From Candidatus Obscuribacterales bacterium (GTDB taxonomy: Bacteria; Cyanobacteriota; Vampirovibrionia; Obscuribacterales; Obscuribacteraceae), in the NCBI GenBank assembly GCA_019744775.1, contig JAIETZ010000004.1:1-64000 (forward strand): a DNA stretch of 64,000 bases, given 5' to 3'. Shown in pieces: positions 3-33,919 of the stretch. The translations under genes and the position numbers were made by a program. Numbering within the stretch: position 1 is the first letter of the stretch; each line of letters opens with the position of its first letter. The notes under the pieces were generated by a model that was given only the letters and a program-made list of their open reading frames with translations, was not told the origin of the DNA and ran no database searches.

Positions 3-3000
3 CTAATACAATTGGATTCACTAAGAGCAGTTGGTGGCAGAGCATTTGGAGATGGCGCAGATATCACGGTGACTTCGACGACGAGCCACGTTGACATTTC
101 TCTGTTCGTTGATAGTTCTGCCTACGATCAAAATACCCCAGGTGACACCAATGCTGGAGCAGCAGGCGACATAACTATAAGCACCGGCGGCAACCTCAGT
201 GGAGGCGCTTCAATCCGCGCGGACGGCGGCATTGCCGGTGGCACGGGCGGTGTTGTTCAACTAACAGCAGTAGCTGATATGACTCTCGACTTTGTAAGTG
301 CATCAGCAACACTACCTGTTGCAACTGGTTCAGGTAACGCCGGTTCAATCACAATTACAACAGGTACTCTGCTAGCCACTTCATTAAGAACCCAGGGCGG
401 ACCGTCCTCAGGAAATGGCGGCGACATAATTGTAGACGCTACAGGTGGCATACACGTAACCTCATTCGTAGATTCCGAAGCCCGCAATGCCGGCAATGGC
501 GGATTGATTGATTTCTCCGCTGGCGGCATCCAAATAGATTCTTTTGTTAGAAGCGCGTCCTTTGCAGGTGGAGGAAATGCAGGCAATATTTCGCTTATTG
601 CGGATGGTTCGTTCAGTACCGGCGACATAATCGCACATGGCAGCGGAGTCGGAAATGGAGGTTCAGTCACAATAAGTGGCGATACTGTCGAGACTTGGGA
701 TATACTCACCTATGGCGGATCAACCGGCAATGGAAATAATGTTTTAATTACCGCTACTGGGGTAAGCCTTCAAATTATCGGCGATATCAATGCCGGAGCC
801 AACGCAGGCGACGCGGGAAATATAACTGCCACTTCCGCCGGTCTGGTCTTTATCGACGGTTTTGTCAGCACAGCCGCCGATGTGAATGGCGGAGATATTT
901 CAGTAACGGCCAATAGCGGTGCCATAAACATAAATTCTTTCGTCAGCTCACGTTCAAGAAGCAGTGGCAATGGGGGAGACATCGTACTGTCAGCCACAGG
1001 TCTACTATCGGTTCTTGCCGCCTCTACAATTAATGACGGATTGAATTCAGCAATAGCTTCAAACGGTGGGGGAACAGGCTCCGCAGGCAACATTACTCTC
1101 GTTTATAATTCATCAATATCAGCACCATTTGTAATTGATAGCACTAACGGTACTGTTAAAGGTCCAATTTCTGCTCGTGGTATCGGCTCGGGCAATGGTG
1201 GCATCATCACTCTCATTAACTCTGGAGGTAATCTTCCTGTCACTCTCAACAGTACTGTCACTGCTATTTCTACAAGTGGCGGCACATCAGGTTCGGTTAA
1301 CTTTAATTACTTGCAATCAGGTATATCAGTTGCAACAAATCCGAGCGCTGTCATATCCGTAGTAGGCACAGGATCTCTTGTTGGTCCGGTCTATGCTTCC
1401 GGCACTGAAGTTACGCTCAACCTAACGACAGCAAACTCCACTCTGACTATCGGTTCAGTGGAGGCAACTGCTGAAGATGTAACTATAACTACCGCTGGGA
1501 CGGCATCCAGCATTACTCTCAATAGCGGTAGCACTATAACTGCCGCTGACCAAATTTCCTTAAATACTGCCTCAGTGACAAACAACGGTTCCGTCTCGGG
1601 CGTCAACATTCTCATCAATAGTGAAGACGATTTGACCTTAAGCGGTAATGGATCATTTATTGGCTCGCCCGGATCGACCCTTATTTATGCTGATGTTTTA
1701 ACATTCTCAGCCAATGCCGACCTAACTTTTACAAGCAACCCTGTGAACTTTTATAGTACGTCCATAGTGTTTGGCTCCAATGTTACGATAACCGCTGACA
1801 ATCCAAGCGGTTCCTTATGGTTCGTCGGCAACGGAAGCAATCTAAATATCACGTTGCCGTCCAACGGAGTGGTTACAATTTCGAATGCCGGCGGCGTGTA
1901 TTTTGATATCAATGGCGACGGAGCAACTCTAAGTGCTTCGAGCACCGGCAATGCAACATTGCAGACCACAGGTTCGACACGTATACAATTCAATGCTGAT
2001 GTAACTGTCAACTCAAATGTCACTATTAACTCGGACGACAACCTGACAATTGGTGGTGGAACATTAGCCCCCGTCGTCGTTACGAATCATGGCGCTCTTA
2101 TAGCCAATGGCACAATGTACATGTCTTCCGGTAGCGACTTAACTGTAGTTAGTGATGGCACACTCGAAGCAGCGACTATCGACCTAACTGCCAGCACCCC
2201 ATCATCGGTGACGGCAACACTTGCCACAACAGTCGGAACAATAACAGCGTCGGCAAATTCTATCGAAATAACTGCATCGGCACCATTAACATTAGGTACC
2301 ATCCAAGCAAATGAAGGTAGCGCAACCATCATTGCCGATGGCGACATTCATGTCACTAACAATATATACGTCAACGAAGGCAACTTAGTCTTACAAGACC
2401 TGAATACTGTCGACGGTTTCATCCAAGTTGACAGTGACGTGATTCTGTCAGCCACAACTACCGGCACAACACTCGGTCGGGTATTCATTTTCATTGGTGC
2501 AGGACCTCCGGCACAGACAAACACCACAACACCGGCAAACATCAATCCGTCAACGCCAAATGACGGCCATATTTACTATGGTGCCAATAGCATTACTGCG
2601 TCAGCTCCGACAAACAATCTCACAGCAGATGGAAGCTCAATTGTGTTTGACTCAGGTGCTCTGCCGTCCACGGCAATTTCGCTGGGCGGCAATGTCACCA
2701 TAAATGCTACAGCTCAACCATCTGGAGAAGGTCCTATCTACAGCCTTGACTTTACCGATCCTAACTTAACCGCCCTCATCATTCAATTGCAGGGCGAAAG
2801 TCAAATCGGCGGCACACTCATCGTCAACGGACAGGGTGTTGCCACCGGAGGCAACGCCATCATCGGCGCCAACATGCTCTCCAATACTCTTACCGGCACC
2901 AACATCCCGACAGGCGTCACCATCACATTTGAAGACTTTACTCTTTCCGACAACGTTAATGTTCAAATCAACGAAGAAAGTCACTCCAATGTCGGCATCA

Positions 3001-5585
3001 TTGCAGGCACTCTGCAATTCACCGGCTCCTCTCCTTCTGCCGGTCTCATCACCGTCAACTCCAATCAAGCCTCCGCCAGCGGCAATCCCGCTTTTGTCTT
3101 AACCGGCACAGGACTACTCACATCCGACGGCAGCCTGTCACTTTCTGCCTCCGGTAATATGCTCCTACAAGGTACGCTAACGGCCGCCACGAATTTGACC
3201 CTTGCCACAACCGCCAATAACGGCAACATCAACATCACCGGTTCCGTCACTGCCACCAACTCTGCAACTCTGTCCACCAACGGTAATGGTACCGTCACCG
3301 GCACAATTGACACCCCGACACTCAACTTCTCATCCACTATGGGTAATCTCGGCACATCCGGCAGCCGCTTTGTCACAACTTCCGACTCTCTCGGCATTAG
3401 CACAGGCGGTGATGCTTACATCAACAATACAAGCACCGGCACGCTTTCTCTGGGAGCGACTTCTGCTCGTAATTTCGATTTGATAAATGACCACGCTGTT
3501 ACGTTGTCTTCCACTCTGCAAGCCAGCCAAAGTGCTTCAATTTTAGTCACCGGCAATAATGGCGGGGTTACACTCAACGGTAACTTCACCGCACCCAATT
3601 GGGTGGACATGGTAGCCAATGGTTCCGGTGACATCGTGCAAAATGCCGGCACGCTTAGAACTTCAAGTGTCTACCTCAAATCAGGCTCCGGCAATATCGG
3701 CTCTTCCGGTTCACCCATTCAAACTAATGCTTTCTACACCACCTTCATCACCTCCGGCGGTGAAGTTCATCTCAACTCCTCCAACTCTATCCGCGTACAC
3801 AACGCATCCTCAGGCTCGGTCATCGATATTACTTCCAATGGTCAAATTGAAGTCGCTCAACCAATAACATCCTCAAGCAGCGTTACCTTCCACGGCGCAG
3901 GGACAATTATTCTTTCCGCCAACATCACTGCTACATCATTCACCTCCCTTTACGGCAATGGTCACGGCAATATCCTCAACAACGGCGGCTCAATAATTAC
4001 ACCTGTTCTGACGACATCAACAGGCAGCGGTAACATCGGCAGCAACACGACAGCTATTGATACGACTGCCACCACAATTACATCAACCAACCAGGGCGGC
4101 AATAACACCAACATCACCGGAGGCGGCAGCCAAACCACCAACATCACCGATATTACTGCTGCCTCTGTCAATGTAACTTCTGATGGCAGTCTCAATGTAG
4201 GTAATGTTCAATCCACTTATGGCTCTATTCAACTGACAGGATCCGGCACCATTACCGTCACCGAAGGTTCGACTATCCATGCCAATGAAGGTGACATTAC
4301 CATTCACAACAACAATGAGACAGGCACCATCAACCTTGAACAAAATTCCACCATCGAAGCCTATACAAACAACAGCGGCAGCGGATTAGGCAATGTCACC
4401 ATTACCGTCGGTAACTCCATCGGCACATCCGGCACGACAGGTGCAAACGTCACCACAAATATTCAAGGTGGCGGTCAAATTGTTGTCGGCGACAACGGCT
4501 TTACCGCTGACGCTCCAAACAATACCATCAATGCAATCGGCGCAACCGTAACCATCGATGCCGGCGCTTCCGGCACAATTCATCTCGGCGGCGGTGTCAC
4601 CATCACTGCTGACCCGCCGATCACAGCTTCCATCTCTTCTTCAACTCCTATTGTGGCTGCTGTAAGAGCCGAAGTATCAGCACCAGCTCAAATCGCCAAT
4701 GTTCTGCCACTTCTGACGATCAACACAACTTCTAGCGCCGCTGCCACTGCGCCAAGTATTGTTCGTACTCAAGTAGTAACAGACGCCACTATTCTGTCAT
4801 CGCCATTCAACATGCAGGTTAATCTGACAAATTCCTTGCCCGGCATCACGCCTGCTTCCAGCACTTCGATCCTCAATAACATTAATAAGCTCAACACGAG
4901 CAATACTCCAACAACACCTACTCAACTGCAAGCGGATGACTCTGAACCAACAGCATATTTACCAATTGCATACACAACAACAGCACCATCGAATTCGACA
5001 ATCGTTAATTCGATTCATGAGATTTCAAAAATTGATTTTGGTTCTTGCAATCTAAGACACGCAGGCAATGCAGATGTTAGATACAACGCAAATGGTGGCA
5101 TCATCCTACATTCAGGCGAAGTGCTCATCCACAGCCCACATCAAACAGTTATCAATGCCGGCGCTTACACCATATCAATTGACTCCGGCAGCGTAGCCCT
5201 AATCACCAGAGAAAACAATGTCGTAAAAGTCCGTGCTTTGCATGAATCACACACCAATGCCATCGTTATCACTGTCGGCAATAACCCACTTAAACTCTCA
5301 GTCGGTCAGGAAGTAATTCTGGCGCCAAACACAGCTCACTTGCAAGCAGCTCTTCAAAAGGAAAGCCTCGGTCGCCGCCATGTAGTTGATGCAGAGCTTC
5401 CTAACGGACACTCAATGTCCCGCTCGGAATTCTCACACATTGGACTCATGGAACAGTCCCATGTACTGTCCAAACTCATCCAATCCAAGTCACCCGCCGA
5501 TAAGCAATTAGCTGATAAATTAGTCAAAACAGCCGCCTGCTTAATGACAGTAACAGGCGCCCATGGCGCTTACAGTGGCAAATAA
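3..5585 (+). CDS. Giant secreted beta-solenoid protein with C-terminal FecR-like domain, 5' end outside the window
   Basis: The frame is open to the left edge, so this is the C-terminal ~1,860 residues of a larger protein; the first possible start (TTG at 12) is not a real start. The sequence is Gly/Ser/Thr/Asn-rich with repeating strand-turn patterns typical of filamentous-haemagglutinin-like beta-helices. The whole visible part aligns with residues ~6,640-8,554 of the next gene, so the two are tandem paralogs. It has one copy of a ~225-residue module (2475-3160), a shorter version near 4390-4610, a Pro/Ser/Thr-rich linker (about 4615-5030), a FecR-like domain (about 5034-5400) and a conserved tail ending AACLMTVTGAHGAYSGK. 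Where the paralog has a CxxC pair (SSACDQC), this copy reads SSAYDQN. A surface or extracellular matrix role is inferred; ligand and secretion route are unknown. The next gene begins 132 bp downstream with its own signal peptide, so this is not one frameshifted gene. Confidence 0.88.
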   Translation, partial: LIQLDSLRAVGGRAFGDGADITVTSTTSHVDISLFVDSSAYDQNTPGDTNAGAAGDITISTGGNLSGGASIRADGGIAGGTGGVVQLTAVADMTLDFVSASATLPVATGSGNAGSITITTGTLLATSLRTQGGPSSGNGGDIIVDATGGIHVTSFVDSEARNAGNGGLIDFSAGGIQIDSFVRSASFAGGGNAGNISLIADGSFSTGDIIAHGSGVGNGGSVTISGDTVETWDILTYGGSTGNGNNVLITATGVSLQIIGDINAGANAGDAGNITATSAGLVFIDGFVSTAADVNGGDISVTANSGAININSFVSSRSRSSGNGGDIVLSATGLLSVLAASTINDGLNSAIASNGGGTGSAGNITLVYNSSISAPFVIDSTNGTVKGPISARGIGSGNGGIITLINSGGNLPVTLNSTVTAISTSGGTSGSVNFNYLQSGISVATNPSAVISVVGTGSLVGPVYASGTEVTLNLTTANSTLTIGSVEATAEDVTITTAGTASSITLNSGSTITAADQISLNTASVTNNGSVSGVNILINSEDDLTLSGNGSFIGSPGSTLIYADVLTFSANADLTFTSNPVNFYSTSIVFGSNVTITADNPSGSLWFVGNGSNLNITLPSNGVVTISNAGGVYFDINGDGATLSASSTGNATLQTTGSTRIQFNADVTVNSNVTINSDDNLTIGGGTLAPVVVTNHGALIANGTMYMSSGSDLTVVSDGTLEAATIDLTASTPSSVTATLATTVGTITASANSIEITASAPLTLGTIQANEGSATIIADGDIHVTNNIYVNEGNLVLQDLNTVDGFIQVDSDVILSATTTGTTLGRVFIFIGAGPPAQTNTTTPANINPSTPNDGHIYYGANSITASAPTNNLTADGSSIVFDSGALPSTAISLGGNVTINATAQPSGEGPIYSLDFTDPNLTALIIQLQGESQIGGTLIVNGQGVATGGNAIIGANMLSNTLTGTNIPTGVTITFEDFTLSDNVNVQINEESHSNVGIIAGTLQFTGSSPSAGLITVNSNQASASGNPAFVLTGTGLLTSDGSLSLSASGNMLLQGTLTAATNLTLATTANNGNINITGSVTATNSATLSTNGNGTVTGTIDTPTLNFSSTMGNLGTSGSRFVTTSDSLGISTGGDAYINNTSTGTLSLGATSARNFDLINDHAVTLSSTLQASQSASILVTGNNGGVTLNGNFTAPNWVDMVANGSGDIVQNAGTLRTSSVYLKSGSGNIGSSGSPIQTNAFYTTFITSGGEVHLNSSNSIRVHNASSGSVIDITSNGQIEVAQPITSSSSVTFHGAGTIILSANITATSFTSLYGNGHGNILNNGGSIITPVLTTSTGSGNIGSNTTAIDTTATTITSTNQGGNNTNITGGGSQTTNITDITAASVNVTSDGSLNVGNVQSTYGSIQLTGSGTITVTEGSTIHANEGDITIHNNNETGTINLEQNSTIEAYTNNSGSGLGNVTITVGNSIGTSGTTGANVTTNIQGGGQIVVGDNGFTADAPNNTINAIGATVTIDAGASGTIHLGGGVTITADPPITASISSSTPIVAAVRAEVSAPAQIANVLPLLTINTTSSAAATAPSIVRTQVVTDATILSSPFNMQVNLTNSLPGITPASSTSILNNINKLNTSNTPTTPTQLQADDSEPTAYLPIAYTTTAPSNSTIVNSIHEISKIDFGSCNLRHAGNADVRYNANGGIILHSGEVLIHSPHQTVINAGAYTISIDSGSVALITRENNVVKVRALHESHTNAIVITVGNNPLKLSVGQEVILAPNTAHLQAALQKESLGRRHVVDAELPNGHSMSRSEFSHIGLMEQSHVLSKLIQSKSPADKQLADKLVKTAACLMTVTGAHGAYSGK
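2475..3160 (+). repeat. ~225-aa repeat module, copy A
   Basis: One of five related protein modules across the two giant genes. The order of landmarks is constant: GRVFIFIG, then GGxIYYGAN-like, TASAPTN, GGNVTINA, SLDFTDPNLTALIIQLQG, GGTL, GVATGGN, NIP-GVT-T, EDFTLS, and finally GLLTSDGSLSLSASGN. It is closest to copy E at 28204-28890. The boundaries are approximate and were set by eye. Confidence 0.75.
3873..4102 (+). repeat. 230-nt tract identical to 29607-29836 in the paralogous gene
   Basis: Read base by base, this tract is identical to 29607-29836 (constant offset 25,734). It sits in a longer patch of about 90-95% identity (about 3490-4320), while sequence before and after is clearly more diverged (roughly 75% or lower by eye). 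Such a local peak between tandem paralogs suggests recent gene conversion or unequal exchange. Confidence 0.85.
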
Positions 5586-5717
5586 CACTAGCAATCAACA
5601 GCCTAATATATTAAATTTCGGTTTATGATGCCAAGGGAAGGGGTATATCTAACGTGAGGGTCTCGGCAGACTCTGACTGTGGACGTTGTGGCGTTTTAAG
5701 ATCCAACTATGGGATGA

Positions 5718-23700: not shown

Positions 23701-26700
23701 TTATCGCGCAAGACATAAGAGCAATTGGGGCCAACTGCTCAGGCAGTTGCGGTAGCGGCGGCGATGTTGTCGTCAATGGCGGACGAATTAATATTGGCCT
23801 CATTGATGTCACAGGAGGATCAGGTCTATCACAAGGCTCCGTGACAGGTAATGCCGGTTCGGTCCTGATTTCTGCCATTTATGGCATAACAGGCGACATA
23901 TCCATTAACTCTATTACTGCAAAAGGCGGCATCGCATATGGACATGATCCTGGAGCATTTGGCGGCAACGTAACAGTAAATGCCGGATTATCACCTTTAC
24001 TGGTAAATTACATCAACACTAGTGGTGGCATCTCATATGGACATGGGCTAGGCGGAGACGGAGGAAACATCAACATAATTGCCCAGTCAATAATTGCTCC
24101 TTCGCTGGTTGCTTCCGGTGGGACAACATATGGGCACGCCAACGGCGGCAATTCAGGCAGCATTGACTTGATTGCAGCATCAAGTATCAATGTCGGGACT
24201 ATGGCAGCCGGCGGTGGCGGCAGCTGGGGATTTGGGCTAGGAGGTAACGGTGGCAACACGCTTGTTTGGAGCGACGACTCCGTCACTTTCGGCACCATTG
24301 ACACTACAGGCGGATTCAATGTTCTCACTCCCGGACAAGGTGGCAACGTAACACTACTGGCCAATCAATCAATAACAGGCGTCGGTATTGCTGCTGCCGG
24401 CGGCACCGAACTAGCGGCACCCACAGGCAAGGGTACAGGCGGCAATGTATTGCTCGCTTCGCTTAATGGTTCAATTGTTCTCACTGACAGCATTCTTACA
24501 TCCGGCTCATTCAACACTTCCTCTGCAATTGGCGGTTCTGTAAGCGCAGCAGCCTCAGGTTCTATCAGCATCAATGGTATTACCAGCAACAGCCTGCAGG
24601 GTTATGCAGGCAATATCTTTGTTTCATCCGGTGAATCCGTCGACCCAGTCGTATCCGTCGGCACTCTGGATGTCAGCTCCGGCATAGCTGCAGGCAATGG
24701 ACAAATTTTCCTCGGCGCTAATGTGGCCGGCACTGACGGAGCTTCAAGCACATCCACCTCATCCATTGTTTTTGAATTGGCAAGCGCATTTACTACTGCC
24801 GCCACTCCGGACGCATACTTGTTCTACGCCAACGGCGGGCACCCAAGCGAAATTACAACTTCAACCACTATTGAAGTCACGACATCCAATGTCAACATTT
24901 TTCCCGGCGTTTACACATCAGATATCGGATCATTCAGCACGCCGGTGACAATAACTCTTGATGTTGGCGGCGACAGTCGCACAATAGTGCCCATAATCAC
25001 CACAGGCGACATGTATCTAAGCGGCTTCAGCGCCGACAACACCGTTGGCGGCTCACTCAGCTATCAGAACAATGGCTACTCAACATTGCTTGCCTCCAGC
25101 GGACCTCAAGGGATTGTTGGAACCGGAGCATTTACCGCCGCAGCTCAGAACCCCGGCTCCGGGGGCAGCTACTACTTGAGCGCATTTGGCGGCGGCACAA
25201 TTCAATTCACCACAATCACAACGGACGCCAATGACATCGGCAATGGTGGCAACGTTGTCATGCTTGCCGACAATGCGGTTATTGGTACATCACTAACGGC
25301 AGTTGGCGGTTCCACTTCCGGCAATGGCGGCAATGTCCGTATTTCAGCTTATGGAGACTACATACAACTCAACAGCTATATTGATACCAGTGCAGTAGGA
25401 GACTCAGGACGCGGTGGGGCAATATCATTGTCTGCCAACACTTCCATTCAGGGTACATCGTTAAATGCAATTGGCGGCACGGATGCAGGCGGAGGCGGAG
25501 ACATTTCAGCTATCACTACAAGCATGGGTGTTGTTTTCTCCAGCTTTATAGATTCTTCCTCCGGTTCTGCCTTTTCGCAAGCATCTACCGCCACAGGTAA
25601 TGCCGGCTCCATCACACTAAGCAGCGCCAGCAACGGCGTCATATATGACTCTTTACGAGCTACAGGCAGCAGAGCTTCCGGAAACGGCGGAAATATCCTT
25701 ATCAACGCCGGCGATGCATTTGTTGGAGTGTCGTTTGTTGACAGTTCCGCATGCGATCAGTGCGTAGTCGGTGATGACAATACCGGTAAGGCAGGAAACA
25801 TTACAGTTGTGGCAACCGCGCTTATTACGGGTTCGCCATCCATTAGGGCAGACGGCGGAATGGAAGGTGGCACGGGTGGCACTGTCACCCTGGTAACAGA
25901 TTCAAACGTTGATGTCTCATTCGTTAGTGCATCTGCGCAAATCCCAACAGCAACATCAGGATCAGGTAATGCCGGTTCCATCACTGTGCTTGCCAAAGAT
26001 TCCATAAACGGTACCTCTTTCAGAACACAAGGCGGCGTGACATCGGGTAACGGTGGTCCGATAAGCCTGATTTCTAGAAATGACAGCATTAATGCCACTT
26101 CGTTTATAGACTCCCAAGCCATGGGTGTTGGCGATGGAGGCGACATTATCATCCAGGCACAAAATTACATAACACTGGATTCCTTCGTTCGCAGCAATTC
26201 CTTTGGCTCAACCGGTAGTGCCGGTGATATTCAGCTAGCCTCACGCAATAGCACCATTGAAACCGGTGATATAGTTGCCAATGCGGTGACTGCGGGCAAT
26301 GGCGGGACCATTTCCATTACGGCATTATCGAATATTACGACAGGCGCAATCTACTCATACGGTGGCAGTACATCAGGCAATGGTGCATCCATTACCCTGC
26401 TATCAAGCGACACTGCCGGTGTAATAAACACACTTGAGATTAACGCAGGCGCCACGGTAGGCAGTGGCGGCAACGTGTCCTTGCAGTCCGGATACGATGT
26501 AAATGTCGATGGCTATATCAGTACGGCAGGCGGTATTAACGGTGGCAATATTGAGGCTGTTACGCTTTTCAATAATCTTGCAATAGACTCATTTGTCAGC
26601 TCCAGATCGCGGACAGACGGCAATGGTGGAAATATCACAATACGAGCTCCCGGTGGAACGGTTGCCGTCTATGGATCAGCCACCATCTCAGACGGACACA

Positions 26701-29700
26701 ACTCAGTAATCTCAGCCTCCGGTGCCGGTTCCGGCCATGGTGGAAATATAGTTATGGAATTTAATTCCAATGATTCATTTGATATCGGCAGTGGACTTTC
26801 AAACAGCAACGGTGTCGGAGGCAACATCTCTGCTTTTGCCGACAGCGGCAATGGCGGCAGTTTCTCTGTTGTGGCAGATGACGACACTGATCTTTATATC
26901 AACCTAAATAACACGATAAATGTATCATCAAACTCCGGAACACAAGGAACTATCAATCTTAACTATCAACAGCCAGGCATTGACCTGACTCCTGATCCAA
27001 CCAGCTATGTTTATGTCGTTGGCAATTCCTCAAGCGAACTTTTAGGTACCACTTATGCTGAAGGTGTGGGCATAGACATTAACCTATCCAAGTCCAACAC
27101 AACCCTAACCATCGGCACGCTTAGCGCTACGGGAAGCAATGTCACGATAACTGCCAACACAGGCAACTCAAGCGTTGTTCTTTTAAACACATCTACAATA
27201 ACATCCGACTTAGGCAATATTACCGTTAACACTACAAACATCACAATTGATGGCGACATGTCAGCTGCCCTGGGCTCTATCACCATACAAAGTTCCGGAG
27301 ACTTACATGTGAGCGGCAGTGGCAGCCTGGAAGCCAGTAACAGCGTTTACTCAAACTCTTTCAACACCTACTCTCCTACCGGTGTCATTCGATTTGAGGA
27401 TGGAACTTCACTAACACAAGTCGGTCAAGGTACAACACTGGTACTTGCACCATTTATAGAATTTGGTGCCGATGTCGTATTTTCAAATGATTATACCGGT
27501 AACAGCCTGGGTTATATATTCGGTCGTGGCTCGTCTCCCATAGTAGTCACCTTAACGTCCAATTCCACGGTCACTTTTAATACGTCGGACTCCGGACTAA
27601 TTCAGTTTGATAGTGTTGCCGGATCGCTCACTTTCAATGCTTCAGGCACTGGCAATGCACAATTGACAACAACTGGAACAACAGGAATAAATATCTGGTC
27701 TTCCGAAAACGACCTGACTATTAATCAGCATGTGACAATCAACAGTGGTGGCACGCTCTCTGTTTATACTTTGGATGGACCGACCGATCAAATTATCAAT
27801 CATGGGTCATTAATAGGTGCCGGCCAGATAAATATTTCAGGAGAGGGCAATTTGAACCTCGTCAGTGACGGCACTGTTCAAGCGTCAACAATTGCTTTAA
27901 CGGCTTTTACGGGAGATTTTTCAACCGCGTCCATTAATGCAACCGTGACAAGCCTTACAGGCACCGTGACGGCAACAGCAAATAATACGATCAATCTAAC
28001 GGCTTCTTCACCACTAACTTTAGGACTTATCGAATCTGCTAATGGTTCAACAACAATTGTCGCCGACGGCGACATTCACGTTACAAATAACATTCAAGTT
28101 ACCGAAGGCAACCTCATACTGCAAGATCTAAACACAGTCGATGGATTCATTGATATAGACAGCGGCGTCACAATATCTGCAACCACTACAGGTAACACTC
28201 TGGGCCGTGTTTATATCTTCATCGGCACCTCACTGCCGAGCGGCACCAACAGTACAGCTCCCGGCAACGTGGTTGTTTCCAATACCAATGGTGGCACTAC
28301 ATATTTTGGAGCCAATAGCATCACAGCGTCAGCTCCGGATAATCATGTAAATTCAAACGGCAGTGTCGTTATTTTCGACACAGGTTCCCTGTCAGCCAAC
28401 TCAATATCATTAGGCGGCAATGTCACAATCAACGGAACATCACAACCTCCGGTTGATGGGCCGATTTACAGCCTTGACTTCACCGATCCAAATCTCACCG
28501 CTCTAATCATCCAACTGCAAGGAGAAAGTCTAATTGGCGGCACATTGCAGGTCGATGCACAAGGCGTTGCAACAGGCGGCAACGCCATCATCGGCTCCAA
28601 CATGCTGTCCAGCACACTCACCGGAACCAATATTCCAACCGGTGTAACTGTTACCTTTGACGGTTTTACAGCCTCAAACCCATTGAATATCAACGTCAGC
28701 GGTTCCAGTCTCTCTCCAATAGCCACAATATCCGGCACTGCTCAATTTATCACATCAGGTTCTCCATCCGGTGGTCTAATTAACATAGCCTCGGATCAAG
28801 CTTCCGAAAACGGCCGCCCTGCATTCCTTCTAACTGGTACAGGTCAACTAATCAGTGACGGTAGTTTGTCACTTTCGGCATCCGGAACGATGACTCTTGC
28901 AGGTACAGTATCCGCTGAGACAAACTTGACACTAGCCACTACAGCCAACAACGGCAATATCAACATTACAGGTCCAGTTTCTGCTACTAATGCGGTCAGT
29001 CTATCGGTCAACGGCAACGGTAAAGTCACAGGCACTGTTGATTCACCAGCATTAAGTTTCGCATCCTCAATGGGTAATCTTGGTTCTTCCACCGGCAGTC
29101 GTTTCAATAGTAATGCGCAATCTATATCCGTAAATACAGGTGGCGATGCATTTATCGGTAATACCAGCACCGGCACTTTGACACTAGGCGCTACATCGGT
29201 TCGCAATCTAGACTTAACCAACAACCACGCTGTTACATTGTCTTCCACTCTACAAGCCAGCCAAAGCGCTTCAATTTTAGTCACCGGCAATAACGGCGGG
29301 GTTACACTCAACGGTAACTTCACCGCACCCAATTGGGTGGACATGGTAGCTAATGGTACCGGTGACATCGTGCAAAATGCCGGCACTATTAGAACTTCAA
29401 GTGTCTACCTCAAATCAGGCTCCGGCAACATCGGCTCTTCCGGTTCACCCATTCAAACTAGTGCTTTCTATACAACCTTCATTACCTCCGGCGGTGAAGT
29501 TCATCTCAACTCCTCCAACTCTATCCGCGTACACAACCCATCTTCAGGCTCGGTCATCGATATTACTTCCAATGGTCAAGTTGAAGTTGCTCAACCGATA
29601 ACATCTTCAAGCAGCGTTACCTTCCACGGCGCAGGGACAATTATTCTTTCCGCCAACATCACTGCTACATCATTCACCTCCCTTTACGGCAATGGTCACG

Positions 29701-31382
29701 GCAATATCCTCAACAACGGCGGCTCAATAATTACACCTGTTCTGACGACATCAACAGGCAGCGGTAACATCGGCAGCAACACGACAGCTATTGATACGAC
29801 TGCCACCACAATTACATCAACCAACCAGGGCGGCAACAACACCAACATCACCGGAGGCGGCAGTCAAACAACTGTTATCACCGGCATAACTGCTGCCTCT
29901 GTCAATGTAACATCCGATGGCAGTCTCAATGTAGGTAATGTTCAATCCACTTATGGTTCGATTCAACTGACAGGCTCCGGCACAATTACCGTCACCGAAG
30001 GCTCAACTGTTCATGCCAATGAAGGCGATATCACAATCCACAACAACAATGAAACAGGCACCATCAACCTCGAGCAAAATTCCACCGTCGAAGCATACAC
30101 AAATAACGGTAGCAGCGGTCTGGGCAATGTCACCATCACCGTCGGTAACTCTATCGGCACATCAGGTACGACAGGCGCCAACGTCACGACTAATATTCAA
30201 GGCGGTGGTCAGATTATCATAGGCAACAATGGCTTCACCGCTGATGCTCCAACCAACACCATTAATGCAATAGGCGCCAATGTCACTATTGATGCCGGCG
30301 CTTCCGGCACAATCAACCTCGGCGGCAATGTCACAATTACAGCTGACCCACCAGTTGTACCGACTCCATCGAGTCAGCCAGTCGTGGCAATTTCCAACAC
30401 CTCACCAATAATTGTTGCCTCTCCATCATCATCTGTTAAAGTTGCTCTTGCTCCGTCTACCAACTCAACCTCGGCTAGCACGACGGCCACAACGGCTCAA
30501 CCATTGACTGTGACAGCCCTTGCCAACATCACTCCATTACTCACAATCAACACTGCCATAGTGGCTTCACCCCCCGTGCCGCAGCTGCTCACAACGACTC
30601 CGCATGTTCCTTCAGCATCCATGGTCATCAACAACTTCAACTCGACGCAAGTTAATCTCATTGACCCGAGCGCAGTCACACCGAGTGCACCACCCAGCAA
30701 TTCTGACAATCAACCATCTACTCAATCAACATCTAACAACTCCGACGAGAAAGCTTATTTACCAATAGCATTTACAACATCGGCGCCATCAAGCCCGGCG
30801 ATGAGCAACACTGCATATGAGCTACAACAAGCTGACCTCGGCTCTTGCCAGGTAAGACATGCAGGCAACGCTAATGTTTCATATGCCGCCGGACATGTCG
30901 ATCTTCACTCTGGTGAAGTTCTTATCCACAGCCCGCAAGCGACAACTGTTAAAGCCGGTGATTACACCATCTCAATTGAGTCTGGTTCAGTAGCGCTCGT
31001 AAGCCGCGACAACCATGTCGTCAAGGTTCGTGCCTTGCATGAAACTCACACCAACGCCATCGTCATCAAAGCCGGCAATAATTCCATCAAGCTCAACATC
31101 GGACAAGAAGTAATGCTGGCAGCCAATTCGACGCACCTGCAAGTTGCCGCCCAAGCTGATAGTCTTGGACGTCGCCACGTGATTAATGCCGACCTGTCGA
31201 ATGGGCACGCCATGTCGCGTTCGGAATTCTCGCATATGGGTCTTATTGAACAATCGCCTGTTTTAACCAAGCTCATCCAATCCAAGTCTCCCACCGATAA
31301 GCAGCTTGCGGGCAAGTTAATCAAGACGGCTGCCTGTTTAATGACCGTAACCGGGGCTCACGGAGCCTTTACCGGCAAGTAA
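5718..31382 (+). CDS. Giant (8,554 aa) secreted modular beta-solenoid protein with C-terminal FecR-like domain
   Basis: A single uninterrupted frame of 25.7 kb; at ~95 Da per residue the product is around 0.8 MDa. ATG at 5718 is followed by a clear signal peptide (hydrophobic ILILALVIQLVCPWAAYA, then AQ). The Shine-Dalgarno signal is weak. Domains by residue: N-terminal domain ~55-145; CxxC module ~393-495; 225-aa modules at ~2345-2571, 3800-4025, 5004-5229 and 7496-7725; GDSRTIVPI-type modules ~3368-3486, 5788-5897 and 6328-6440; glycine-rich block ~4178-4448; a second copy of the N-terminal domain ~4555-4650; Pro/Ser/Thr linker ~8211-8371; FecR-like domain ~8373-8498; conserved tail. Between modules lie runs of GG-N-V/I-T/S turns, as in right-handed beta-helices. 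Cysteines are rare and mostly in CxxC pairs. No TpsB/Omp85 partner is nearby, and the N-terminus lacks an obvious classical TPS domain, so the secretion route is unclear. A surface adhesin or matrix role is inference. Confidence 0.9.
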   Translation: MGMGRILILALVIQLVCPWAAYAQDAPNNSPTNLDLSSTDRNVAASSVLPSAGQATINLGGVTRAVTAADMLTAAEMVAVRQVFNTGNQYLQLNDMGAAVGGGIHLQYYATNGLTNLVIPEGVRASQNAAVLQSLNLTGNLTNSGTFNIFSSNAAVTSATVNAANIYNNVGATISSTLATLNLNAVNNIVNAGTISSAGVLNMTAGNSITNLGVMQAINNLSAQAATMVNTGTMMAQLGNVNAVTSNLVNSGVMQALAGKLTISNLASSNVLMIDGLNGVFSAAKELSVLNNITTFDSEGNLLSKGRLGVTGGTFTGQSVNFSSPSGIVGVAAEEINGPLNVAGGFAAVGVERGTLQVNGMAITGTDPIFSSGGNLELNLGGILQTAIAGGAYGGLDFIALAGGNISATNSQANSLSSAAGTPNGGHILLASGVDFTVNNPNCSTCTDPGDYTINGPSTTGGNVNLANNAFETNNNNIDVIAYGGSTNNGSVAINGLRAYGANSNVSITADSSVQLGSAASFAGNQFTISAGSNITPIGTITANQVTIESTGGNVNLRQDITATTDISVSAAAGDITRTNGTLTAPTIALDAAGNIGTALANVVVNAPTLGANSDGNVYITSVNPGITQLSISSAGSSHTFSVTSVGSLFPGLITGNDIILTTTGANSRIMSTGNITAGSTLSYFTNNFVNGASQSAGTSITVTGDNLFVTDVGSMFGGGTLTAPSINFVANNGSLSVNQEQLSGTVNASAPENIIVHVDNTSGFTLGTISTSYTVNNAPFAGITYYAGNTSAVFNFGAVIALSEGSSSPTINATLNGSQELINTLDVDGQSSGNMLVFVAATNLATTSVTNTGSILLDNPYSAVTIDTLTATDNIIVGAGGTITTTGTSTISATNDFTLRTNGNNPDIVIGNGITAGSNIALNSLIDIEQTGGTLSSSALSLQVYMGHIGTSAENIISDAASINANAEFGTDVYINATNASVQIGKSSAGTNSGNTLQITSGQHLNIIDSLKANTISLLGGNNGNIYISGNIVAGQSLSIAAQGSGEINAAATVSLTAPAISLTSDTGGIGTGTALTIGSMQSVAALQIDLDIQSNSNASISNQSNMLLQLQSSSVAGTFNLSSNYEIDVVGDVDADTLAISTTNSMGNIVLSANLTGTTSVSLTPGGAGAITQTNDSYVITAPTVNLITQIGNIGSMSDTGTNIQRINVDADNLTARNESLFGGGFQGTGSNPGGARGIVFVHSVNAGATNINGLNGSVGQEFSLIADGAITFTSGSTTQGTFSFSQGLTNPAMVITAPSITVQSGALIQNTNNGQSGSIQINTNTLVNDGQILGESIYITSLGVSAGTNNLTISGDGNLSVAFLPGFVDEGYIHFNSNAVVSVSQGSISGIVTNGTGFQMSVPTYTASSFSLTVDGDTLHVGRIASSGAVNITNQTGDIEVGNNNDQFAGVTGTNITFTVNRESNGIRNGRIFLAPNSGVNASGALVFNTPVFSNNTGALLYNPSGAGSFSGNTSYIINTTLTLDINTPSPSQYNGTWIFLWGLPQVHGQTSITIQNTGGGDLLVSGIGGMYTGSTTGAAVKSGDYSGIGTGNITMSAPNGSVVASQSVIMGNVILTAKTSQDSFGNAGLAMLDVGIPGLYTFSNYNETAFLNNTSGYEPLLNQVTPGTPQYGTWHPNTATNSIRSMSITAAGTQSSQNWTFSTWTGTTYYKAPAAQIVNGMVILSSLFDGDPTIVVNSVASGSYVVNGNLTIGTQGPPNPQNEHSHPANTLVVHTSLPFQVNGNMTVSSNGNVYIDTGSYGAFNIGSDSLSANLSVTGSSAVAFNGTGALIYASSTQDSGFVHEIYAPRGIISANVSASSTTGNFINNGSQIAGGRIDASFTGTGAGRIFTGQLVTLGGNNPQNGNITVTNSTSPLSGTTDIQIGFIDAFGNVSIRNQYGDIYMDAQTIQAGHNNDNAKSISLISDNGSIDITLNSNILASGLAGSDGTITIQYNGNFSLTNLSRLGQSTDALVTITDLDLSSASGNSFTMSKSYIASRNISISTSGTAHYLVGAGVGNNGGGDVNIYHYGDLIFEGGASSNGNNVLISNRDGDFIMGNTVAGTANSNGGTVTLRNQNGNMLITSDSEILGNNGIIISNIGGDLTINHGATINSIPQGSSELINISVSNSGGTITIDALPVNASGGPNFSYSPNFGSLGQRGGNLLASGTLTITNDGDINIIGPGADAIWAPQGIFLISSNGSVNVSQFQISSPIIGQSYNAFNVTTTGSGLTIGSVYANPTGTGTNGSISLVAGTGTLQVLANSSVRANIGNLLLQNTSGGFITLGQNAFLSAVANATDNGTVKIVSGPLPTSPIAGSAPANVISGTASGGQIYFGRNRFTANAPDNYVTTAASTVTFDASASDMITLGGNVIINGTTAGELPYQLITSLDLVNDPNAIQLLLDLQTAGVIVGNLQLIGSDLVGEATLLPSNLSLSLSAQYIPSTVTLTMQDFQSTNPLNINITASSTTTQALVAGTMEFVGTGPASNAVLNVNSTQAGPVLVFQSGGLLTSDGTLALGSNGDITSTGGRIQTPILTVASSGNVTLVNDGDITLRSSQIGGTFTLSTISNGTITIDLNAVVVAGGDVNLTATGTGSINAPSYFDPDTFTTSYGGYVKAGDTVNLTTDTGNIGADDWDSPVWFQGPNVTVHTQGSAWINNCWLCPDTPTYLGTSSVGGSLHVIVCCNGNLEIASGATVEVNTLGNSTDFYTFYAETNYGQFIVGQGANVQIYGTGANPANVLVETYGAPMVVQNGAHFQITGDGVMTLNLVPYNGFENDGLINYGFIGTEAGASNGTYINNEYGYSGFAIGGNGYFTGDVYTNMQGGSYQSIYINAISGSITTAEDINTENIFNNANGGNVTLIASGDITVGGTGLVSTHASDPNGNGGNVVLSTTSGTLSVGTISTIGGSTSGNGGNVTIYSGTDLNLLETIETYVSGGTSTAGNVTITSGGNIGLSSLVDTDAWSGATGGQIVMTAAGSINTGDLYSYGGSANGGSIILKAGTDITTGLLDSDGENGVSAGAISLIAGGNLTTQAIWATSGTGDAGAVRAISGGNISLGYIHARSVDGGSGGDVTAVASGSLTTGQIDSYANTGATASGGTVTLAAGTSINTGTIFTHSSVGLDGGSITISAGTSVTTNALIAYAGSGTGGSITIVSGSTVSTDNINANGGGPGGEINIYAKQTVTTGYLSSGGAISDGALGDAGAITVIAGGTITADSISAKSDNGNGASTVLVSTGGNIAITGGYSNTIDNTSTGNGSLGGSVALVAGGTVSVVGGIQVQSANANGVGGNIFISSGDTSGNSSVSTGAINTSAGTGGTAGIIFLGANTTGTNGQGSSSSSSGAIRYSLSGTGAASPTTNPYLFYDSTNNPSTVMAITGSGSTTLSVTTSNITMRPGVYTTDIGSSQSAVIFVAVGGDSRTIVPIVSSGNVNLLTFEASAPYTIGSGYNMVVASGGTTGISLTGNLNSDIEVKSSTFAALSTGSISQSAGAINATGIARLFAVGGDVGVSGNGIHFDSPTLATGTVGSGNALAWKFTSGALTVTTGTAGVATGTGRLFVFNADSIDVTGAAVAQITDFISSTGNSDITLHHDVVGVTQVDIEANGTGNINQLAGMIIGGSDDIILRSDSGNIGTSANARINTIATRALAAETSGTGTVFISQLGGTILLGSSSGGDFDLAITGGGATQIVGDITVADGNMTITTSSTNTALTVGSGLTTNLTVHGGSITIENDNTDLGTIVLASNLTLQTATGGNVNIVIGSVPSNPVTGTTPDNVNVTTSGGGSVYFGTYGVTANAPTNNIDANGASVIFSTGNSNLLALTLDGNVTINASNTAPFTGLTSLDLTDPATVALIVQLQGDSIIGGTLQVSGGIAVGGNVILAPTDLAASITAYNIPQDVTLTMQDFALTNVVHIDITGSSTTSQALLSGTHEFVWTGVTGTGSLNITSTQAGPVFVIANTATLSSAGALNVTADGDIQIDGTVLTNGNIAINSTGGSIAVSTVVSAGFYSSISFTAAEDIGLTSLTTYGGGNFTALAGRDIYQTTINSDINTTANTGTVVGGNITLAAGVAFTLTPNTQCSGCSIFNITGASSTGGDIDASTLSLTTNRSDINLQAHAGSDRTGTIAIQNLKTAGGEGGVQGGGDRLDAGNIIASASGSIVTGDLLAYGGGAGAAAGGGGDGGAGGYVSIASTSGDITIAGIINAFGGGGAGAAGGGGDGGDGGEIGLYAYNGSITVDSGINTSGGGGGANLGGGGDGGRGGNITLFATNSISIDGPVLAAGGGSKGAIGIGGGGGSFGGGGGAAPSISAGTVTSAATGGGTFGVGGAAASGGGGWYGGGAAGNWCCYGGSGGSGTGGEGGSNVAGGSNPGTFGHGGSGAVDGVGSAGTNAGTRPGGVISLNGSSVTVSQTIGSEFGFTDSPFAGYSIYAGNSGQVYISTPNVLLQDGNFESGSRAYSANLGSSSFTVGGSGSAGSINAQGGIYINRTSAGTDISSGTYAADSSPVTISENGSLQVTNGLSVTPAEWLAVIQTLNGGQTITLDSNGNAVGGSLNLGVANLPAGGFTELILPAGITAYTNAASIHSVNSITLNTNLSYETLTGDFTLMAPTIVVASGVQVSPAVYSSGLTIITNNLVNNGTLTSSYYTIIEALGNCNLNISGNGTLEQTLSGTSYFYFSAYKGLNQSITFNGDQLISFPDSANVSYYAYGTGSSVNFGDNTTQTIDGDANVTFFTPGVTFGASSQYNVTGSGTVDFYATQSITLADNSNATLSVGGGNINFTATYADIAFNTSGSAGPSTLYLYGAPVNISVGGTASIDGVTIATDNSLTFSSNNVNLIITGTGSLAADLGVAFNSTIGAVTVSQESITGTVSGAAGSGDFNLTVNTGDLTLGNISTTNGSIAILLGATGGALSTVPGAQIHANLGNLSLENDNTSTGTIFIGANSVLSAYSNSGNTIGNVYITIGTVPSNPDAGTAPSNVVINTPNGGSVYFGDSPSSTITANAPTNTLTANDSSILFNTGTASSNAITLDGNVTINASNATLLNSLDLTDPTVTALIISLQGSMELGGTLVVDGNGVATGGNVIIAPSNLSATLTGYNIPANVTVTMEDFTLSDSVSIDITGTSNTLYARLAGTHEFIGSVNPSGAVLNITSDQAGPIFYIYSTGLLSSDGSIDITANGNIAAANNGYITADVVTLTTTNNASIGVEGTVRVQPFTSGGPTNLTITSDGSSYVSHLGDVNLQASSAVGVFSLVTTGGGNINLSGTGVSAAAITMSAGGSGSILDTTLNAELVATANITLSAGTDVIVNGMVNSFGGTGYVSGNQSAGDISITAGHDILLAGGIFASGNADIGDGGNVTLSAGHNVSVNPGGSFPEAITTSSYYGHAGNVSITSSTGSISLGSWIDASSYYGQMGGAVTLSAGTTLTTDGIYTNATEIAGGAITLTAGDSIVAGWLGSVCDYGVAGGITLTAGTTIETLALDARAELGKAAGSITAIAGQSIDTEEIYAYTLGSSDGHGGSVTFMAGTTISTGFIRASSSAGVSGGNVSMTAGQSIDTGYIEANSNSGYGGFVSLLAGTTITTSTIDTSTGATGMSGGTVTLGAVEAIATSDITTSGGLVSSGSVHVFTGNNSNAATILLGEINASGANGGLVQIINSAANTSSTNLTVGNISTYTTGTNHGGGSVSLVSSGAISAGDIATDAGASNPYAGGVFVSSGGTGSTAINVGNISTTAPSGVAGAVILLSSQTSSSALNPTNITYASIDASGDTNGDTLVYGLYGASATLPSNLDITPTTNINIRPGGYATIAGSATVPLQLTIVGGGYPNMLVPINIGVSDVNGNSLYLDSVSTNENVGFVLSGNATLPSTLAVSANLSILALGTISTQGPLAISSPASMTLVARQGLSVSAPYSVYLHAGQTITTMGVVSTSSSAAGVNAGNIIMRAGEVIAQDIRAIGANCSGSCGSGGDVVVNGGRINIGLIDVTGGSGLSQGSVTGNAGSVLISAIYGITGDISINSITAKGGIAYGHDPGAFGGNVTVNAGLSPLLVNYINTSGGISYGHGLGGDGGNINIIAQSIIAPSLVASGGTTYGHANGGNSGSIDLIAASSINVGTMAAGGGGSWGFGLGGNGGNTLVWSDDSVTFGTIDTTGGFNVLTPGQGGNVTLLANQSITGVGIAAAGGTELAAPTGKGTGGNVLLASLNGSIVLTDSILTSGSFNTSSAIGGSVSAAASGSISINGITSNSLQGYAGNIFVSSGESVDPVVSVGTLDVSSGIAAGNGQIFLGANVAGTDGASSTSTSSIVFELASAFTTAATPDAYLFYANGGHPSEITTSTTIEVTTSNVNIFPGVYTSDIGSFSTPVTITLDVGGDSRTIVPIITTGDMYLSGFSADNTVGGSLSYQNNGYSTLLASSGPQGIVGTGAFTAAAQNPGSGGSYYLSAFGGGTIQFTTITTDANDIGNGGNVVMLADNAVIGTSLTAVGGSTSGNGGNVRISAYGDYIQLNSYIDTSAVGDSGRGGAISLSANTSIQGTSLNAIGGTDAGGGGDISAITTSMGVVFSSFIDSSSGSAFSQASTATGNAGSITLSSASNGVIYDSLRATGSRASGNGGNILINAGDAFVGVSFVDSSACDQCVVGDDNTGKAGNITVVATALITGSPSIRADGGMEGGTGGTVTLVTDSNVDVSFVSASAQIPTATSGSGNAGSITVLAKDSINGTSFRTQGGVTSGNGGPISLISRNDSINATSFIDSQAMGVGDGGDIIIQAQNYITLDSFVRSNSFGSTGSAGDIQLASRNSTIETGDIVANAVTAGNGGTISITALSNITTGAIYSYGGSTSGNGASITLLSSDTAGVINTLEINAGATVGSGGNVSLQSGYDVNVDGYISTAGGINGGNIEAVTLFNNLAIDSFVSSRSRTDGNGGNITIRAPGGTVAVYGSATISDGHNSVISASGAGSGHGGNIVMEFNSNDSFDIGSGLSNSNGVGGNISAFADSGNGGSFSVVADDDTDLYINLNNTINVSSNSGTQGTINLNYQQPGIDLTPDPTSYVYVVGNSSSELLGTTYAEGVGIDINLSKSNTTLTIGTLSATGSNVTITANTGNSSVVLLNTSTITSDLGNITVNTTNITIDGDMSAALGSITIQSSGDLHVSGSGSLEASNSVYSNSFNTYSPTGVIRFEDGTSLTQVGQGTTLVLAPFIEFGADVVFSNDYTGNSLGYIFGRGSSPIVVTLTSNSTVTFNTSDSGLIQFDSVAGSLTFNASGTGNAQLTTTGTTGINIWSSENDLTINQHVTINSGGTLSVYTLDGPTDQIINHGSLIGAGQINISGEGNLNLVSDGTVQASTIALTAFTGDFSTASINATVTSLTGTVTATANNTINLTASSPLTLGLIESANGSTTIVADGDIHVTNNIQVTEGNLILQDLNTVDGFIDIDSGVTISATTTGNTLGRVYIFIGTSLPSGTNSTAPGNVVVSNTNGGTTYFGANSITASAPDNHVNSNGSVVIFDTGSLSANSISLGGNVTINGTSQPPVDGPIYSLDFTDPNLTALIIQLQGESLIGGTLQVDAQGVATGGNAIIGSNMLSSTLTGTNIPTGVTVTFDGFTASNPLNINVSGSSLSPIATISGTAQFITSGSPSGGLINIASDQASENGRPAFLLTGTGQLISDGSLSLSASGTMTLAGTVSAETNLTLATTANNGNINITGPVSATNAVSLSVNGNGKVTGTVDSPALSFASSMGNLGSSTGSRFNSNAQSISVNTGGDAFIGNTSTGTLTLGATSVRNLDLTNNHAVTLSSTLQASQSASILVTGNNGGVTLNGNFTAPNWVDMVANGTGDIVQNAGTIRTSSVYLKSGSGNIGSSGSPIQTSAFYTTFITSGGEVHLNSSNSIRVHNPSSGSVIDITSNGQVEVAQPITSSSSVTFHGAGTIILSANITATSFTSLYGNGHGNILNNGGSIITPVLTTSTGSGNIGSNTTAIDTTATTITSTNQGGNNTNITGGGSQTTVITGITAASVNVTSDGSLNVGNVQSTYGSIQLTGSGTITVTEGSTVHANEGDITIHNNNETGTINLEQNSTVEAYTNNGSSGLGNVTITVGNSIGTSGTTGANVTTNIQGGGQIIIGNNGFTADAPTNTINAIGANVTIDAGASGTINLGGNVTITADPPVVPTPSSQPVVAISNTSPIIVASPSSSVKVALAPSTNSTSASTTATTAQPLTVTALANITPLLTINTAIVASPPVPQLLTTTPHVPSASMVINNFNSTQVNLIDPSAVTPSAPPSNSDNQPSTQSTSNNSDEKAYLPIAFTTSAPSSPAMSNTAYELQQADLGSCQVRHAGNANVSYAAGHVDLHSGEVLIHSPQATTVKAGDYTISIESGSVALVSRDNHVVKVRALHETHTNAIVIKAGNNSIKLNIGQEVMLAANSTHLQVAAQADSLGRRHVINADLSNGHAMSRSEFSHMGLIEQSPVLTKLIQSKSPTDKQLAGKLIKTAACLMTVTGAHGAFTGK
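5881..6150 (+). repeat. N-terminal domain of the giant protein, first copy
   Basis: Residues ~55-145. The landmarks are MLTAAEMVAVRQVFNTGNQ, LQLNDMGAAVGGGIHL, LTNLVIPEGV and NAAVLQSLN. The same landmarks recur in the same order at 19381-19665 in the middle of the same protein. Confidence 0.7.
6895..7200 (+). repeat. CxxC-containing module, first copy
   Basis: Landmarks: FIALAGGNISAT, GGHILLASGVDFTV, CSTC near 7045, GPSTTGGNV and NGSVAINGLRAYG. It is repeated at 17940-18260 with CSGC in the same place. Boundaries are by eye. Confidence 0.65.
12752..13430 (+). repeat. ~225-aa repeat module, copy B
   Basis: Most diverged of the five copies. It reads GGQIYFGRN, TANAPDNYV, GGNVIINGT, TSLDLVNDP, YIPSTVTLTMQDF, then GGLLTSDGTLAL, in the same order as the other copies. 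Confidence 0.7.
15819..16174 (+). repeat. GDSRTIVPI module, copy 1
   Basis: Landmarks: IFLGANTTGTNG, NPYLFYD, VTTSNITMRPGVYTTDIG, VGGDSRTIVPIVSSG. A closely related copy lies at 24699-25035 and a more distant one at 23080-23405. Confidence 0.7.
17115..17790 (+). repeat. ~225-aa repeat module, copy C
   Basis: Landmarks: VNIVIGSVPSNPVTGT, GGSVYFGTYG, TANAPTNNIDANG, DGNVTINAS, SLDLTDPATVALIVQLQG, IGGTLQVSG, NIPQDVTLTMQDFALT, ending near LNVTADGD. It is closest to copy D. Confidence 0.75.
17940..18260 (+). repeat. CxxC-containing module, second copy
   Basis: Landmarks: FTALAGRDIYQTT, GGNITLAAGVAFTLT, CSGC near 18096, GASSTGGDI, GTIAIQNLKTAGG. It matches the module at 6895-7200 in order and spacing. 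Confidence 0.65.
18250..19060 (+). repeat. Glycine-rich low-complexity block inside the giant gene
   Basis: About 270 codons dominated by GGN and GCN, giving strings such as GGGGDGGAGG and GGGGWYGGG followed by NWCCYGGSGGSGTGG. The nucleotide sequence is much richer in G+C than the flanks. The later part (about 18720-19060) resembles glycine-rich domains of the ALK/LTK type in style, but this was judged by eye only. The block lies just before the second copy of the N-terminal domain. Confidence 0.8.
19381..19665 (+). repeat. N-terminal domain of the giant protein, internal second copy
   Basis: Residues ~4555-4650. The landmarks LSVTPAEWLAVIQTLNGGQ, ITLDSNGNAVGGSLNL, FTELILPAGI and NAASIHSVN match the first copy at 5881-6150 in order, spacing and many residues. 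Confidence 0.7.
20728..21405 (+). repeat. ~225-aa repeat module, copy D
   Basis: Landmarks: VYITIGTVPSNPDAGT, GGSVYFGDS, TANAPTNTLTAND, DGNVTINAS, SLDLTDPTVTALIISLQG, GVATGGNVIIAPSNL, NIPANVTVTMEDFTLS, then GLLSSDGSIDITANGN. Confidence 0.75.
23080..23405 (+). repeat. GDSRTIVPI-type module, diverged copy 2
   Basis: Landmarks: DTLVYGLYG, TPTTNINIRPGGYATIAG, LTIVGGGYPNMLVPINIG. The position of LVPI and the RPGGY turn match copies 1 and 3, but GDSR is not kept. Confidence 0.5.
24699..25035 (+). repeat. GDSRTIVPI module, copy 3
   Basis: Landmarks: IFLGANVAGTDG, DAYLFYANG, VTTSNVNIFPGVYTSDIG, VGGDSRTIVPIITTGD. It is close to copy 1 at 15819-16174. Confidence 0.7.
28204..28890 (+). repeat. ~225-aa repeat module, copy E
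   Basis: Landmarks: GRVYIFIGTSLPSGTN, GGTTYFGAN, TASAPDN, GGNVTINGT, SLDFTDPNLTALIIQLQG, GVATGGNAIIGSNML, NIPTGVTVTFDGF, then GQLISDGSLSLSAS. It is the positional equivalent of copy A in the upstream gene. Confidence 0.75.
29607..29836 (+). repeat. 230-nt tract identical to 3873-4102
   Basis: This is the second member of the perfect 230-nt direct repeat shared by the two giant genes. It lies in the solenoid region between module E and the FecR-like domain. Confidence 0.85.
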
Positions 31383-33723: not shown

Positions 33724-33744
33724 TCGCAATCCCATATTAAATTC

Positions 33745-33832
33745 ACAGCCTAAAATCTAGGCTGTCCAAATAGCGTCCAGGCAAAGGTTTGAGGCTCTGC
33801 AAGCCTGAAGCAGGCATCCCTGGCATTGACGC
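33745..33832 (+). ncRNA. Candidate structured leader upstream of the TadG-like gene
   Basis: The 196-bp gap before 33920 contains a perfect 8-bp hairpin (ACAGCCTA-aaatc-TAGGCTGT, 33745-33765). A second nested structure follows: GCGTC/GACGC (33773-33777 with 33828-33832), CAGG/CCTG (33778-33781 with 33819-33822) and an inner GCCTG-aag-CAGGC (33803-33815). GCCT at 33803-33806 can instead pair with AGGC at 33793-33796, giving two exclusive folds. No known riboswitch class is recognised. The pairings were found by eye. Confidence 0.3.
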
Positions 33833-33919
33833 TCTTGGACTCAGATGGTATCGTCAAAAAGGGATTCTTAAACGCAGTTAATATTCATCGTCTGGCCCAA
33901 TCCATATATAGGAGCTGCC

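Follow-up and report, generated by a model that had tools for sequence, protein, structure and literature searches.

FecR-like Module at the C-termini of Giant Exported Proteins in Obscuribacterales

Tandem Giant Genes at the Contig End

The window, that is, the whole stretch of DNA analysed, comprises the first 64 kb of contig C4 from a 4.1 Mb genome (G000) that is 98% complete. The organism belongs to the uncultured Obscuribacterales, which are non-photosynthetic diderm bacteria within the cyanobacterial phylum (PMC4040986). Two neighbouring genes on the plus strand occupy the left half of the window. The ORF of giant protein A (3..5585) shows 1,860 aa and is open at its left end, with the N-terminus lying off the contig, because the window begins at contig base 1. 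Giant protein B (5718..31382) has 8,554 aa and an ATG start. Both ORFs are real and uninterrupted; the chance of an 8,554-codon run without a stop is about 10^-178. Over its full length, A aligns with the C-terminal 1,914 residues of B at 59% identity, and the two genes are therefore tandem paralogs, in agreement with the first-pass annotation.

Protein B begins with a signal peptide predicted by eye (5718..5786, ending in CPWAAYA and followed by QDAP). Next comes a conserved N-terminal leader (5787..6413), which by profile and model looks like the start of a beta-helix of the two-partner secretion (TPS) or filamentous-haemagglutinin type. The long body (6414..30332) is rich in Gly, Ser, Thr and Asn and poor in Lys and Arg. 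It is presumed from this composition to be a beta-solenoid, the fold having been modelled in the leader alone; a Pfam search of the body gave no match. The body is followed by a linker (30333..30803, residues 8206-8362) containing 47% P+S+T, a FecR-like beta domain (30807..31121, residues 1-105 of the AlphaFold2 model used for Foldseek) and a C-terminal extension (31122..31379, model residues 106-191) consisting of a helix, two strands and three helices. In A, the corresponding parts are a P/S/T-rich linker seen in the sequence (approximately 4620..5006), the beta domain (5007..5324, limits by alignment with the model of B) and an alpha/beta extension with the conserved pattern R...E.S...K...GxY (5325..5582). 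The Pro/Ser/Thr linker proposed earlier for both proteins is indeed found in A and B but is rejected as a family feature, with 27% P/S/T in the linker against 28% in the upstream sequence across the family.

The last 191 residues of A and B are 71% identical. With dS near saturation, dN/dS between the two proteins was 0.06 in the tail and 0.21 in the body, and the tail is thus under stronger constraint than the body. Downstream of B, the region 31514-36214 encodes a protein with a von Willebrand A domain (31514-32305), an uncharacterised one of 472 aa, and one of 764 aa whose N-terminus looks TadG-like by eye and which contains a long proline-rich segment.

Structure and Conservation of the C-terminal Module

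The module at the end of A and B, referred to here as D2, has about 190 residues and includes a beta domain of about 105 residues and a helical extension of about 75-80 residues. The extension had been described as a tail of about 55 residues, which the secondary structure of the model shows to be too short. The AlphaFold2 model of the B tail, built with seven sequences, reached pLDDT 87.8 and pTM 0.86. It contains about ten strands over residues 6-105 and then the extension up to residue 182. DSSP assigns to the extension a helix at 108-117, strands at 122-129 and 135-141, and helices at 143-149, 151-158 and 162-182.

A Foldseek search of the PDB with the B tail returned four matches with E<1e-3, all of them FecR/PupR-type periplasmic domains with a probability of 1.00, among them 4m0n (E 2e-5), 4m0h and PupR 6ovk (E 4e-4). 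The match spans 114-118 columns and covers the beta half alone (TM 0.46 by query length); for the extension after about residue 105 no structural match was found. Sequence comparison gave a different picture. The Pfam FecR profile PF04773 did not match the window tails; among 20 family members the best value was E=0.098 in one member, and in 38 related genomes the profile matched other proteins and not the D2 carriers. Profile-profile comparison of D2 tails with the Pfam-type FecR proteins of the order was not significant. An HMM from 20 tails aligned with 4m0h as two in-register pieces, again weakly and without significance (E 0.13). Since the structural matches are of FecR type and neither Pfam nor the profile-profile comparison provides a link, the beta domain of D2 is FecR-like by predicted fold, and common ancestry with FecR is plausible. 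The FecR-like assignment of the first-pass annotation is thereby supported by structure prediction and not by the Pfam search of the tails.

Two other matches of the tails were rejected. Pfam GGA_N-GAT, a eukaryotic trafficking family, was matched on the tail helix in 3/20 members (E 8e-5, below the cut-off) and is considered a chance helix match. Matches to C1q profiles in the PDB (best E 0.009) reflect local strand likeness without support from Foldseek. The order also has a separate secreted family with a true Pfam FecR domain, found in this genome at G000:C5:219313-219585 and in relatives (L128-L137) from several genomes as ORFs of 398-864 aa.

The strongest polar conservation of D2 lies in the extension: R117 (94%), E134, S136 (93%), K167 (93%) and Y182 (85%). 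In the beta part, G30 and G93 are near invariant. In 90% of the copies, the final 75 residues have a net basic character, whereas the bodies are acidic and poor in Lys and Arg. The exoprotein HMW1 is held by a disulphide-locked anchor. Such an anchor is rejected as a general mechanism for D2 because no cysteine is conserved in more than 29 of the 83 tails.

A second FecR-like copy, D1, is present in about one third of the 83 proteins; among giants examined outside the window the share is roughly one half. It lies about 300-410 residues from the protein end and lacks the extension. D1 is usually followed by a motif like EELIPVDGVDREP, occurring as (D/E)EELIPVDGVDREP in L080, L025, L086 and others. 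The profiles of D1 and D2 are clearly related (profile-profile E 9e-17). No D1 was found in A and B.

Distribution of D2

A search of the genome with the terminal ~190 residues of B gave 30 matches, corresponding to 28 proteins, A included, after second matches within the same ORF are removed. Nineteen of these are giants of 1,728-25,007 aa, together 119,800 aa or 8.8% of the genome. Most of the remaining proteins are small and secreted, with 230-580 aa. Among them are stand-alone secreted D2 proteins of 230-280 aa, which keep the conserved R117, S136, K167 and Y182. Their existence shows that D2 does not need a fibre in order to work. Match positions and ORF lengths point to a tandem array of four giants at C6:20.9-105.5 kb (5,780, 7,414, 3,947 and 10,865 aa), all with both leader and D2. 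The longest ORF (L008, L071) lies on the minus strand of G000:C2 at about 174.65-249.7 kb and spans 25,007 aa without interruption; it encodes D1 and D2 as well as the signal peptide and leader, and its product ranks with the very large proteins of bacteria.

Of 83 distinct copies of D2, taken from many genomes, 81 end 0-32 residues before the stop codon. Of the two exceptions, L053 is a probable frameshift and L075 has a C-terminal extension. The latter, a 497-aa ORF (G000:C1:209000-214000) with 233 residues after D2 that resemble TPR repeats by look, is the sole examined copy with a real extension behind the module. The unusual placement of a FecR-like domain at the end of a giant exported protein, remarked on in the first-pass annotation for the two paralogs, therefore proves to be an order-wide rule, the tail being present on many other large exported proteins of the same genome and of related genomes.

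Within Obscuribacterales, D2 occurs in 36/39 genomes, with at least 55 domain matches at the top of the range; none was detected in G005, G014 and G032. The module was likewise found neither in 21 genomes from the rest of the class nor in 385 further genomes sampled from the phylum. The tail also occurs on a 1,759-aa ORF (L056, SBAT01000417.1) in a metagenome-assembled genome labelled Chloroflexi, which is probably a mislabelled Obscuribacterales bin. A viral origin of D2 was rejected: viral contigs contained no relative, no viral structure matched significantly, and PHROG matches were sub-threshold only.

N-terminal Leader and the TPS Transporter

All 18 giants of this genome with a readable N-terminus have a signal peptide (by eye) and the conserved leader. 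A search with the leader profile gave 20 sites in this genome and matches in 38/53 genomes of the order. Leader and tail counts per genome are correlated (Spearman 0.89 over 39 genomes), and in no genome does the leader occur without the tail. Pfam gave no match to the leader, either to the TPS domain (Haemagg_act PF05860) or to any other family. TIGR01731, a filamentous-haemagglutinin beta-helix repeat, matches 9/13 leaders. The leader model has a low overall pLDDT of 59.7 with a confident solenoid at roughly residues 90-230, and its top Foldseek matches, weak ones with a best E of 0.044, are the TPS secretion domains of HMW1, EtpA and HxuA. Neither NPNL nor NPNGI was found in the 18 leaders; NPN followed by V or I occurs in four, and one NPNG is located further downstream. 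By its model and its TIGR01731 matches, the leader may be described as resembling a TPS beta-helix.

The outer-membrane transporter of TPS systems, TpsB, is absent from this genome according to a search with ShlB PF03865. Across the order, the ShlB/FhaC search gave no convincing match in 53 genomes and marginal partial matches in three of them. Outside the order, the same search was positive in 59 of 79 genomes of the phylum, with nearly every member of the best-sampled sister family among them. The transporter is thus common both in the remaining families of the class and in further members of the phylum. The TPS transporter has thus apparently been lost in Obscuribacterales alongside the expansion of TPS-like giants. 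This genome encodes a single Omp85 protein with POTRA repeats, which is BamA-like. As the TPS transporter was not found in the order, the outer-membrane crossing of the giants is a step without a known machine.

Relation to Known Systems

The periplasmic signalling domain of FecR/PupR (PDB 6ovk, PMC7186176; 4m0n/4m0h, BDI_1681) has the same fold as the ~105-residue beta domain of D2 and is likewise found in an exported setting, periplasmic or extracytoplasmic. Unlike FecR/PupR regulators, the D2 carriers have no anti-sigma domain or transmembrane segment, and the STN subdomain is unmatched; ahead of the domain they have a signal peptide and then a solenoid or nothing. D2 further differs in its new helical extension, its C-terminal place on giants and a sequence missed by PF04773.

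TpsA exoproteins such as FhaB, HMW1, HxuA and CdiA (PMC5422565) share the general plan of signal peptide, beta-helix leader and very long repetitive body, which is presumably beta-helical in the giants as well. They also end in a distinct C-terminal domain, to which D2 is unrelated. The giants differ from them in lacking a Haemagg_act/TPS-domain Pfam match, the NPNL/NPNGI motifs and a TpsB in the order. The D2 giants follow the plan of TPS exoproteins and have one domain with the fold of FecR, yet fail tested defining features of both.

The C-terminal domains of PEP-CTERM (PMC1569441) and T9SS proteins are also lineage-restricted and placed on many otherwise different exported proteins. D2, however, has another fold and length, occurs also stand-alone, and no sorting enzyme was identified for it. 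An NCBIfam search of the tails gave no match to a sorting signal or to the T9SS C-terminal sorting domain. Tandem genes of giant surface proteins taking up several percent of the genome are known from Apilactobacillus kunkeei (Giant1-5, PMC12863079), but that bacterium is Gram-positive and its giants have an unrelated architecture; here the share is 8.8% and one terminal module is shared. The literature searched contained no description of the D2 giants. The family would fall among giant surface fibres whose C-terminal domain is specific to a lineage, the end module having been previously unnamed.

Possible Role of D2

A and B are most likely members of a family of giant exported beta-helical fibres that is specific to the order. 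For D2 itself, we favour, with a probability of roughly one half, the function of a cell-envelope retention or docking module for these fibres. The giants would be exported by their Sec-type signal peptide, the TPS-like leader being followed by the long solenoid and then by D2, i.e., the FecR-fold domain with its helical extension. The fibre would cross the outer membrane and fold outside, while the compact basic D2 would be held back within or at the periplasm or outer membrane, docked on a common envelope partner. D2 would then serve as a stop-and-anchor element keeping the fibre attached, a role comparable to that of the retained C-termini of TpsA proteins, e.g., FhaB. The analysis shows the architecture, the FecR-like fold, the distribution and the conservation of the module; surface exposure, a solenoid fold throughout the body, periplasmic retention and the partner itself are what we infer. 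Docking on a common envelope component is suggested by the strict C-terminal position at any protein length, the restriction to one order and the stand-alone use, and also by the basic D2 next to acidic bodies and the stronger constraint on the tail. The FecR fold fits docking because the periplasmic domains of FecR/PupR are protein-binding and contact the signalling domain of an outer-membrane receptor (PMC7186176). It also fits because the C-terminal domains of TpsA proteins such as FhaB are handled in the periplasm (PMC8263021; PMC5422565). Searches for a partner protein of D2 found none, the STN-domain search giving one sub-threshold match.

The anchoring or sorting function suggested in the first-pass annotation fits the C-terminal position, the independence of body length and the one-order restriction, but given the stand-alone forms D2 cannot be solely a secretion signal. 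The same position at any protein size, the confinement to one order and the many copies per genome would suit a C-terminal export or sorting signal for a dedicated secretion machine, perhaps removed during export and providing no permanent anchor, the more so as the missing TPS transporter calls for another route. We consider this unlikely, since the giants already carry a TPS-like leader at the N-terminus, the stand-alone versions are little besides D2, and L075 has 233 residues beyond the module. In addition, a PEP-CTERM-like transmembrane helix with a basic cluster is not visible on inspection of the sequence and of the last helix of the model. Because small stand-alone secreted versions exist, D2 is not merely a solenoid cap for giants either. 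Its beta-rich structure, its invariable position after the body in giants and the upstream D1, present in about half of those giants that were examined beyond the window, could be expected of a folding cap or chaperone-like element that ends and stabilises the solenoid without a binding partner. A linker, however, separates body and D2, and proteins of 230-280 aa without any solenoid still preserve the four conserved residues, so that such a role appears improbable.

Binding of a cell-wall or envelope polymer (peptidoglycan, LPS or a secondary polymer) instead of a protein, as in the surface anchors of other bacteria, has a similarly low probability. The net basic extension and the use of D2 both alone and on giants would agree with it, but the sole structural relatives found are the protein-binding FecR/PupR domains, and Pfam, PDB profile and NCBIfam searches of the tails matched no known polymer-binding family. 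The least probable reading, in which D2 is a signalling domain and its carrier a normal regulator of FecR type joined to a sensor fibre, has the FecR fold in its favour. Against it stand the absence of an N-terminal anti-sigma domain and a transmembrane helix, the unmatched STN-like subdomain of PupR, the tens of copies per genome and the neighbourhood of five stand-alone copies, where the genes look by eye like unrelated housekeeping genes.

The docking reading of D2 may be extended, tentatively and with rather low probability for the combination as a whole, to an undescribed surface-display pathway. In such a pathway, dozens of giant beta-helical fibres would carry a TPS-like leader although the TPS transporter is missing, and a partner in the outer membrane or periplasm would take the place of TpsB by recognising their FecR-fold docking module.

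Significance for Obscuribacterales

About 9% of one bacterial genome is invested in a single unnamed family of giant exported proteins with a two-ended architecture. Its host is a non-photosynthetic order of the cyanobacterial phylum with a little-known cell surface. D2 provides a marker for finding and counting such giants and represents a FecR fold reused outside signalling. The family raises the question of how proteins of 5,000-25,000 residues reach the surface and stay on it without the usual transporter.
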